Notes under the pieces: model-generated
Told to the model about the DNA's origin: nothing
What the model saw: the letters and a program-made list of their open reading frames with translations, nothing else
Database searches by the model: none
Part shown: in pieces, positions 11,737 through 13,570 of the stretch
How the letters are laid out: each line of letters starts with the position of its first letter
How positions within the stretch are numbered: position 1 is the first letter of the stretch
Translations under genes and position numbers: made by a program
Assembly: GCA_009838915.1 (NCBI GenBank)
Contig: VXQT01000003.1
Location: 1 to 64,000, forward strand
DNA length: 64,000 nucleotides
Direction: 5' to 3'
Origin: Chloroflexota bacterium
GTDB lineage: Bacteria > Chloroflexota > Dehalococcoidia > Bin125

Positions 11737-12843
11737 CTAGTCGTCGAACTCCATGATCGCTCGACCGAAGATCTCGCCATGTTCGAGGGCGGTGGTGGCC
11801 TCGTTGATCTGGCCGATCGTGAAGCGCTCGGTTACCATGGCGTCGAGGTCAAGCGCGCCGTCCTCGGCCCAGGCGAGGAACATCGGGAAATCGCGGTCGG
11901 GATGGCAACTGCCGCCGATCGAGCCGATGTACTTCTTTTCATTGATCAGCATGCCGCGCATGTCGACCTCGCTAAAGGTCACGCCCGATTGCGGCACGCC
12001 GACCAACACCGCCGTGCCGCCGGTCTCGGCGCCCAGGATGCCCGGACGTACAGCGCGGAGGATTTGACCCATTGTGACCTCGCGGCCGATGCAGTCGAAG
12101 GCGAAATCGGCTCCCGAGATCGGCTCGCCGAAGCTGGTCAGCCCTTCGCCCTGGGTCAGCGCGTGGACCTGCTCGATGGCGTCGCCGCCCGAGGCGTTGA
12201 CGCCGTGGGTCGCGCCGAAGCGCTTAGCGAACTCGAGCTTCTCGTCATCCAGGTCGACGGCGATGATCGGGTCGGCGTTGACGACCGAGGCCGCGACCAC
12301 AGCCGAGAGTCCCACCCCGCCGACGCCGAAGATCACCACGCTGTCGCCCTCGCGCACGGCCGCGGTGTTGTAGACAGCGCCGGAGCCGGTCAGCACGGCG
12401 CAGCCGATGATCGAGGTGACATCGCGGCGCGTGTCCTGCGGGACCTTGACGATGTACTTCTCGTCGGCGATCGTCGTGTCTGCCCAGGTGAAGACGTTGC
12501 GTGTGGTCGCTGTGCGGCCGTTCGGGCGCTCGACGACGACCGGGTCGACTTCTCGGGTCGCGGTGTCGGGATTGCGCGGAACCCAGGTGACGAAGACGAT
12601 GTCGCCGACCTGCACGTTGGTCACCTGCGAGCCGACCTTGATCACCTCGCCGGTCGCCTCGTGACCGAGAATCTGGTCGCCGTTGCGCGGATTGTGCATC
12701 TGGTGCAACTGCGAGTGGCAGATGCCAGACGCGAACTGGCGCACGACTACCTGGAAGTCGCTGGGGTCTGGCAGGTCGACGCGTTCGACGGCCAGGGGCT
12801 CGTCTGCTTCGGGGAGAAAGACCACGCGTGCGGGAGTTGGCAT
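11737..12843 (-). CDS. Zinc-type alcohol dehydrogenase (NDMA/mycothiol-type subfamily)
   Basis: A 368-residue medium-chain dehydrogenase. It shows SGICHSQLHQMHNP (catalytic zinc Cys region), ILGHEATGEVIKVG, the NAD(P) motif VVIFGVGGVGLSAVVAA, and a C-terminal REVTMGQILRAVRPG. The proximal segment lacks the four-Cys structural zinc lobe in its usual form. The subfamily is close to NDMA-dependent alcohol and mycothiol-dependent formaldehyde dehydrogenases, but the substrate is not certain. MPTPARVVFLPEA at 12843 is the start; the open frame further upstream is not protein-like. Confidence 0.82.
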   Translation of the reverse strand: MPTPARVVFLPEADEPLAVERVDLPDPSDFQVVVRQFASGICHSQLHQMHNPRNGDQILGHEATGEVIKVGSQVTNVQVGDIVFVTWVPRNPDTATREVDPVVVERPNGRTATTRNVFTWADTTIADEKYIVKVPQDTRRDVTSIIGCAVLTGSGAVYNTAAVREGDSVVIFGVGGVGLSAVVAASVVNADPIIAVDLDDEKLEFAKRFGATHGVNASGGDAIEQVHALTQGEGLTSFGEPISGADFAFDCIGREVTMGQILRAVRPGILGAETGGTAVLVGVPQSGVTFSEVDMRGMLINEKKYIGSIGGSCHPDRDFPMFLAWAEDGALDLDAMVTERFTIGQINEATTALEHGEIFGRAIMEFDD

Positions 12844-12871
12844 GAGAGGCTCCTGTTCGTCAACACTCACG

Positions 12872-12915
12872 CTCCCCCTTCCAGGGGGAGCTGTCGCGGA
12901 ACGACTGAGGGGGTT
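12872..12915 (+). repeat. Palindromic repeat of the CTCCCCCT...AGGGGGAG type
   Basis: CTCCCCCT and AGGGGGAG pair around TCC, followed by CTGTCGCGGAACGACTGAGG, a second short GTCG/CGAC palindrome. The arrangement resembles a repeat seen in many bacterial genomes. It lies upstream of both divergent genes, the alcohol dehydrogenase and the rRNA-methyltransferase-like gene. Confidence 0.55.
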
Positions 12916-12949
12916 CCGCCGAGAGTCTACCTTGCGCAAACATGTGGCT

Positions 12950-13570
12950 ATGGAGATCATCACCCGGCGCGGGCTGCGAACCATGGAAGCGGCGGAGTTC
13001 GACGAGCTGCGCGCTCGGTACGCATCGACGTTGGTGGACCTGGGCACCGGCGACGGCGCCTGGCCGCGTCGGTTTGCGCGCGAGCATGACAATGTGCTGG
13101 CGGTCGGCGTCGACGCCGACCGCGAGGCGCTGCGCGAGGCGGCCAAGCTGGCCGAGCGCAAGCCCGCGCGCGGCGGCGCGCCCAACGCGCTCTACGTCGC
13201 GGCGAGCGCCGAGTCGTTGCCGCCGGAGCTGCGCGAATCGGCCGATTGGGTCACTGTGTACTTCCCCTGGTCGGCGCTGCTGCGGATGATCCTCGTGGGG
13301 GACAATCTGCTTGCCGAGATGTTGTCCTTTCTCTGTCGACCGAGGTCGCGAGTAAGCTTCGTGCTCAACGCGGATGCGCCTCCGGAGGGCGTCGATCCGC
13401 CGACGCCGGCATCGGTTCGCAGTTCGCTGAGTGTCCCGCTATCGTCGGCAGGCTTCAGGATTACGAAGTCCGAGTGGCTGGACGCTTCGCAGGCGCCGCC
13501 GACGACCTGGGGCGGGCGCCTGGTCAAGGGCAGCGGCCGGGCAATGATTGGTCTTGACGCGACGCGATGA
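12950..13570 (+). CDS. KamB/NpmA-like 16S rRNA (adenine-1408-N1)-methyltransferase homologue
   Basis: A 206-residue Rossmann methyltransferase. Family NpmA/KamB methylates N1 of A1408 in the 30S decoding site and confers aminoglycoside resistance in producers and pathogens. Matching features in order are the SAM motif VDLGTGDG (about residue 30), AVGVDAD, RKPARGGAPNALYVAASAES followed by LPPEL, the FPW motif (the Trp that stacks on the flipped adenine in NpmA), GFRI, and a C-terminal TTWGGRL that supplies the second conserved Trp. Length matches NpmA (219 aa). The ATG at 12950 is in frame. Whether it modifies rRNA here is unknown. Confidence 0.78.
   Translation: MEIITRRGLRTMEAAEFDELRARYASTLVDLGTGDGAWPRRFAREHDNVLAVGVDADREALREAAKLAERKPARGGAPNALYVAASAESLPPELRESADWVTVYFPWSALLRMILVGDNLLAEMLSFLCRPRSRVSFVLNADAPPEGVDPPTPASVRSSLSVPLSSAGFRITKSEWLDASQAPPTTWGGRLVKGSGRAMIGLDATR

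Follow-up and report, generated by a model that had tools for sequence, protein, structure and literature searches.

The closest described relatives of the gene analysed here are enzymes that methylate A1408 of 16S rRNA. KamB of Streptoalloteichus tenebrarius (PDB 3mq2) protects a tobramycin producer, NpmA and NpmB1 (3mte and 7ehf) come from clinical E. coli, Kmr (4rwz and 4rx1) belongs to Sorangium cellulosum, and UncKam (7jlz) is likewise the A1408 methyltransferase of an uncultured bacterium; CacKam is a further member. WarA of Nocardia wallacei is an A1408 enzyme giving aminoglycoside resistance in Nocardia, according to the title of the 2024 paper by Hershko that is cited in PMC12406665. 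What individual residues do in binding SAM, flipping the base, and docking on the 30S subunit has been described (PMC4705659). A homologue of these enzymes, which we term kam, is encoded in the window, that is, the whole stretch of 64,000 nucleotides of Chloroflexota DNA that was analysed:

12950 to 13570, + strand: kam, KamB/NpmA-type 16S rRNA (adenine-1408 N1) methyltransferase homologue of 206 amino acids, recognized by reading frame, profile, and fold.

The reading frame runs on the + strand for 206 codons from an ATG at 12950 to a TGA at 13568-13570, just where the original prediction had placed it. The kam product matched PF24675, the Pfam family of 16S rRNA adenine-1408 N1 methyltransferases, over residues 7-201 with 167 bits (E 4.6e-49; curated cut-off 60 bits), and the runner-up was a generic methyltransferase family at 31 bits. 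A PADLOC match to mad2 (37 bits) reflected merely the common methyltransferase core and was set aside. Among the NCBIfam models, kam ranked closest to KamB (133 bits, against a naming cut-off of 350 for NF000363), followed by WarA (91 of 305, NF051863), NpmB (86, also under its cut-off), and NpmA (67 of 470, NF000030). Falling under all of the naming cut-offs, kam is therefore a member of the family yet none of the named enzymes. The best matches in a sequence search of the PDB were Kmr (6e-29), KamB (8e-27), and NpmA (3.5e-20), with NpmB1 and CacKam also found, and identity to the characterised enzymes was about 28-35%. The gene is a fresh inherited member of the already known KamB/NpmA family.

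The motifs and residues on which this comparison turns are located as follows:

12953 to 12982, + strand: N-terminal beta hairpin (model strands 2-5 and 8-11), which precedes the in-frame stop of the interrupted relatives described below.
12995 to 12997, + strand: codon 16, GAG (Glu); the homologous codon is TAA, TAG, or TGA in 44 other Chloroflexota genomes.
13034 to 13057, + strand: SAM-binding motif I, VDLGTGDG, with D30 equivalent to NpmA D30.
13112 to 13114, + strand: D55, the ribose-binding Asp of the SAM pocket.
13145 to 13174, + strand: beta2/3 linker KLAERKPARG, a basic surface for 30S docking (K66, R70, K71, R74; role from PMC4705659).
13262 to 13270, + strand: FPW, with W107, the first clamping Trp.
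13502 to 13540, + strand: beta6/7 linker TTWGGRLVKGSGR, with T185, W187 (NpmA W197), R190 (R200), and R197 (R207; roles from PMC4705659).

An AlphaFold2 model of the kam product, built on an alignment of 35 loci, had a pLDDT of 95.2 and the class I SAM fold, with the N-terminal beta hairpin and the beta2/3, beta5/6, and beta6/7 linkers all present. When overlaid with VIA-align, the model matched NpmA (3mte) best, with Z 27.0 and 1.9 A across 206 residues, and then KamB (Z 26.6), CacKam, NpmB1, and Kmr (25-26), and UncKam (21), TrmB being the next family at 17.6. Each motif in the order that had been read from the sequence could be located, namely VDLGTGDG (residues 29-36), KP-RGG-N (KPARGG.N, 71-79), AAS-ES-LP-EL (AASAESLPPEL, 84-94), FPW (105-107), GFRI, and W-RL (W187..R190L), an arrangement that the PF24675 E value of 4.6e-49 shows not to be due to chance. 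Residues D30, D55, E88, P106, and W107 have the same numbers in NpmA, and T185, W187, R190, and R197 correspond to NpmA S195, W197, R200, and R207; all nine are invariant or almost so across family f1. The SAM pocket (D30, D55, E88, and the GxGxG motif) is complete, and the two Trp residues said to clamp the adenosine are indeed those aligned with NpmA W107 and W197. Profile, fold, tree, and functional residues thus all back the KamB/NpmA-type assignment made by the original prediction.

Each of the described enzymes differs from kam in particular ways. With NpmA and NpmB1 (Z 27.0 and 25.5; 28-32% identity), kam has in common the equivalents of R200 and R207 and the basic docking loop, but it lacks their mobile context, its beta5/6 linker is shorter, the position of NpmA R153 is missing, and NpmA R205 is replaced by Ser. 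Kmr (34-35% identity, Z 25) resembles kam in fold and in W107/W197, whereas its beta5/6 linker is longer and His takes the place of R200. KamB and CacKam have the SAM pocket in common with kam, and KamB, like kam, has Thr at S195. UncKam is only 22% identical. As an observation on the docking loop in the wider family, PF24675 members at loci L150-L156, L160, and L161 (families f90, f118, and others) have lost most of the beta2/3 loop, with KPARGG deleted and the catalytic residues kept, and their products may dock differently.

The short beta5/6 linker and the missing R153 region, together with TrmB being the nearest other fold, might suggest a related N-methyltransferase of TrmB-like ancestry that uses the same fold on a different rRNA or tRNA base. 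We regard this as quite unlikely, given that the flipping and clamping residues for A1408 (NpmA W107, W197, R200, and R207) are kept in 19 of 19 f1 members and that a Z gap of about 10 separates NpmA and KamB from TrmB. The target base itself is present: the 16S rRNA of the same genome (locus L063) reads CCGCCCGTCACG, with a matching target site in nine relatives, and the wider stretch, ...CCGCCCGTCACGTC..., contains C1407, A1408, and C1409.

We estimate a probability of roughly 0.8 that the kam product is a SAM-dependent 16S rRNA m1A1408 methyltransferase, encoded by a fixed chromosomal gene and most likely serving constitutive, intrinsic protection of the decoding site. By analogy with the characterised enzymes, the kam product is probably an active methyltransferase that is specific for this position and that, where expressed, would confer kanamycin/apramycin resistance. 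As shown for NpmA, the basic beta2/3 linker would serve to dock the enzyme on the assembled 30S subunit. R197 would then flip A1408 out of helix 44, the flipped base would be clamped between W107 and W187, and methylation of its N1 would block most of the 2-deoxystreptamine aminoglycosides.

The distribution of kam was that of an inherited gene. It was carried by 19 of the 20 genomes of its own family, the sole exception being G005 (94% complete), and the f1 proteins formed a single clade (SH-aLRT 99) whose closest pairs had dN/dS values of 0.16-0.23, indicative of purifying selection. Named relatives at 75-85% identity were Chloroflexi/Dehalococcoidia MAGs; certain of their bin names hint at sponge samples, which is a lead only. 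Beyond the family, members above the Pfam cut-off occurred in 31 of the 294 genomes of the class and in 40 of the 400 of the phylum sample. Two further features lie immediately 5' of the gene:

11737 to 12843, - strand: zinc-type alcohol dehydrogenase, divergent from and adjoining kam.
12866 to 12928, no strand assigned: dispersed repeat copy within the promoter region of kam and the dehydrogenase.

In the cases tested, G010 and G015 retain the dehydrogenase gene next to kam, and G005 lacks both genes. The neighbourhood, which consists of dehydrogenases, a phosphatase, and ilv genes, is conserved across the genus with respect to the phosphatase, SDR, and FAD enzymes. The promoter GGATTCTAGTCTG, found in most congeners, is replaced here by the dispersed repeat and diverged sequence, and expression of kam in this particular genome is therefore uncertain. 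The repeat itself, GGGGGAGCTGTCGCGGAACGACTGAGGGGG, occurs only once in the window; G005 contains some 20 similar pieces, and such pieces are found in G010 too.

Because NpmA and NpmB occur in clinical E. coli (PMC9311965), a recently acquired mobile resistance gene might have been considered, and the original prediction had raised the idea of a reservoir of resistance. Searches of plasmid and viral sequences for relatives of kam found none, and nothing else spoke positively for a reservoir. Recent mobile acquisition is contradicted by the tree and by synteny, with one vertical clade and a conserved neighbourhood, and we consider it highly improbable. Carriage by 19 of 20 genomes, a single clade, purifying selection, a kept neighbourhood, and the lack of plasmid or viral relatives identify kam instead as an inherited core gene within a larger, patchy family, in keeping with the suggestion that it might be ancestral or housekeeping insofar as it passes by descent and nearly every genome of its own family has it. 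A gene likely to protect the ribosome at A1408, known from antibiotic producers and clinical isolates, here belongs to the normal inheritance of an entire family of uncultured bacteria, which bears on the origin of such resistance genes.

KamB is of the self-protecting type, and the same role in an aminoglycoside producer could be imagined for kam. The genome (95% complete) has one DHQ-synthase-family gene, as expected for aroB alone, and therefore gives no sign of 2-deoxy-scyllo-inosose synthase or of deoxystreptamine synthesis, in which it differs from the KamB producer; the neighbours of kam are likewise of other kinds, and producer self-protection is accordingly a very improbable role. As far as tested, then, the earlier statement that nothing nearby indicates aminoglycoside synthesis holds. 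A G1405-type FmrO enzyme was also sought in this genome and was not found.

A single copy, near-universal carriage within the family, purifying selection, and a context unlike a resistance island would all suit a housekeeping role, in which constitutive m1A1408 would adjust decoding in this lineage and resistance to drugs would come as a side effect. We think this rather unlikely. The gene family is patchy in the class, G005 does without kam, expression of NpmA or KamB carries a fitness cost in E. coli (PMC12406665), and an in-frame stop inside the same gene elsewhere in the phylum ill suits constant modification of the ribosome. Inheritance by descent and the uninterrupted reading frame make constitutive intrinsic protection the most likely use of kam, and we moderately favour it as first choice over housekeeping.

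That in-frame stop, within the PF24675 gene, was found at 45 loci in 44 other Chloroflexota genomes of nine families (L100, L102-L106, L108, L031, L040, L050, L148, L163-L168, L179-L208, and L214). It is TAA at 24 loci, TAG at 20, and TGA at one, and in 39 of the 45 it lies exactly 14 codons 5' of the motif-I Asp30, where the window gene has GAG for Glu16. Within the class to which G605 belongs, 40 genomes have a match, and 37 of them show exactly one stop inside the matched domain. The peptide before the stop is a conserved leader, MRxVxGRRLxEVDVG-stop, equivalent to the N-terminal hairpin of the enzyme, and the frame then carries on into the remainder of the protein. The codons leading up to the stop show synonymous constraint: that at -2 was GTC in 39 of 39 (background 0.56, p 1.6e-10) and that at -3 was GAC in 40 of 41 (p 1e-5), although the sequences share ancestry and do not count as independent, so that these p values are too small. 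At 33 of 45 loci a TANNNT box precedes the start codon of the leader by exactly 6-7 nt, against 0-2 at other offsets, which points to a leaderless mRNA starting at the leader ATG. Leaky TGA was used internally in one of 39 and at gene ends in 11 of 39, whereas tight TAA was enriched internally (24, versus 3 at gene ends). A1408 is present in those stop-bearing genomes whose 16S region is readable.

Several ordinary explanations of the stop were considered and rejected. The interrupted genes do not look like pseudogenes: there is a single stop at a fixed codon, the sequence after it evolves under purifying selection (dN/dS 0.13-0.47 for the pairs that have diverged least), and the catalytic residues are kept, with P106 and W107 in 43 of 43 aligned stop-bearing copies and W187 and R190 in 42 of 43; L166 and perhaps f132 are exceptional in carrying further damage. 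Sequencing error does not account for a stop seen in 44 genomes. Reassignment of the codon is at odds with the use of TAA, TAG, and TGA alike and with several genes that have the same codon both internally and as the final stop. An RNA switch was not apparent, there being no stable common structure among five sequences (z -1.3 to +1.2). Nor is the stop a general trait of aminoglycoside-resistance methyltransferases, for it was absent among the listed G1405-type matches (FmrO, PF07091; 76 genomes).

Translation might instead restart downstream. In 17 of the 45 loci there is no ATG, GTG, or TTG before D30, which makes restart ahead of that residue impossible, and in 13 of the 45 none appears until more than three codons past D30, by which point motif I is lost. 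Candidate restart codons were found in 28 of 45 stop-bearing genes compared to 21 of 44 stop-free ones, so that they were little more frequent, and their positions were no more favourable. Restart may possibly serve in the remaining stop-bearing loci. For the many copies that have no usable restart codon, and with no common RNA fold found, readthrough is the simplest route to the enzyme, and readthrough-controlled expression is, on the sequences, the likeliest reading of the stop-bearing genes. Modelled with Gln in place of the stop, the readthrough product took the same fold (pLDDT 94.6), and that residue lay in the first turn of helix 14-22.

On the tree, the stop-bearing rows gather in a main clade with strong support, from which some outliers stand apart; L148, the row with TGA, pairs with the stop-free L027 as its sister in f50 (SH-aLRT 99), and L040 and L050 lie apart, from which it follows that the trait changed at least twice. 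By parsimony, TAA and TAG were swapped about 10 times, at least 4 of these over well-supported branches, and the codon remained a stop. L040 (G174) and L166 (G357), of unrelated families, have tandem stops, TAG-NTC-TGA, at the same site, as if doubly locked, and L166 is further damaged downstream. Within the main clade, an in-frame deletion of about 12 codons has removed the stop from L196 (G709). The stop-free gene of G451 seemingly lacks the hairpin, which warns that some members may do without it. L167 and L168 (G422 and G436, of one genus) have, besides the leader TAG, a second in-frame TGA 97 codons past D30.

Speculatively, readthrough is possibly induced by the very aminoglycosides that the enzyme blocks. 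Aminoglycosides that bind at A1408 increase readthrough, amikacin doing so about twofold in E. coli, most strongly at TAA (PMC10959953). A drug bound at A1408 would lead ribosomes through the leader stop and allow the enzyme to be made; methylation of A1408 would then abolish drug binding, readthrough would drop, and the switch would close. The resistance gene would thereby sense the drug via its own mistranslation, with no regulator required, and the family of the window gene, with its GAG codon for Glu16, would be the unswitched, constitutive branch. We hold only tentatively, at somewhat below even odds, that the Chloroflexota m1A1408 gene is commonly kept off behind a conserved stop, switched on by aminoglycosides through readthrough, and closed again by methylation. 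Within this model readthrough per se is better supported than drug induction; a sensing loop would follow naturally from readthrough, though a twofold effect is modest. A limited literature search turned up no earlier case of a resistance gene under readthrough control; a distant precedent is the frameshifting induced by ketolides, cited in PMC10959953, by which ermC expression goes up. Should readthrough be confirmed for the interrupted genes, expression of a resistance gene would hinge on it, and genes of this type would be overlooked or cut short by gene callers and resistance databases. The stop-bearing relatives matter more than the window gene.

The stop-interrupted genes, and not kam, are also the nearest kin of WarA seen here. 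WarA was their best NCBIfam match, at 160-164 bits, and its model starts at window residue 27-28, that is, after the site of the stop and without the N-terminal hairpin. A separate observation concerns family f119 (G386, G442, G470, G548, G566, G594, and G604), in which several genomes have two FmrO (PF07091, G1405-type) genes close together.
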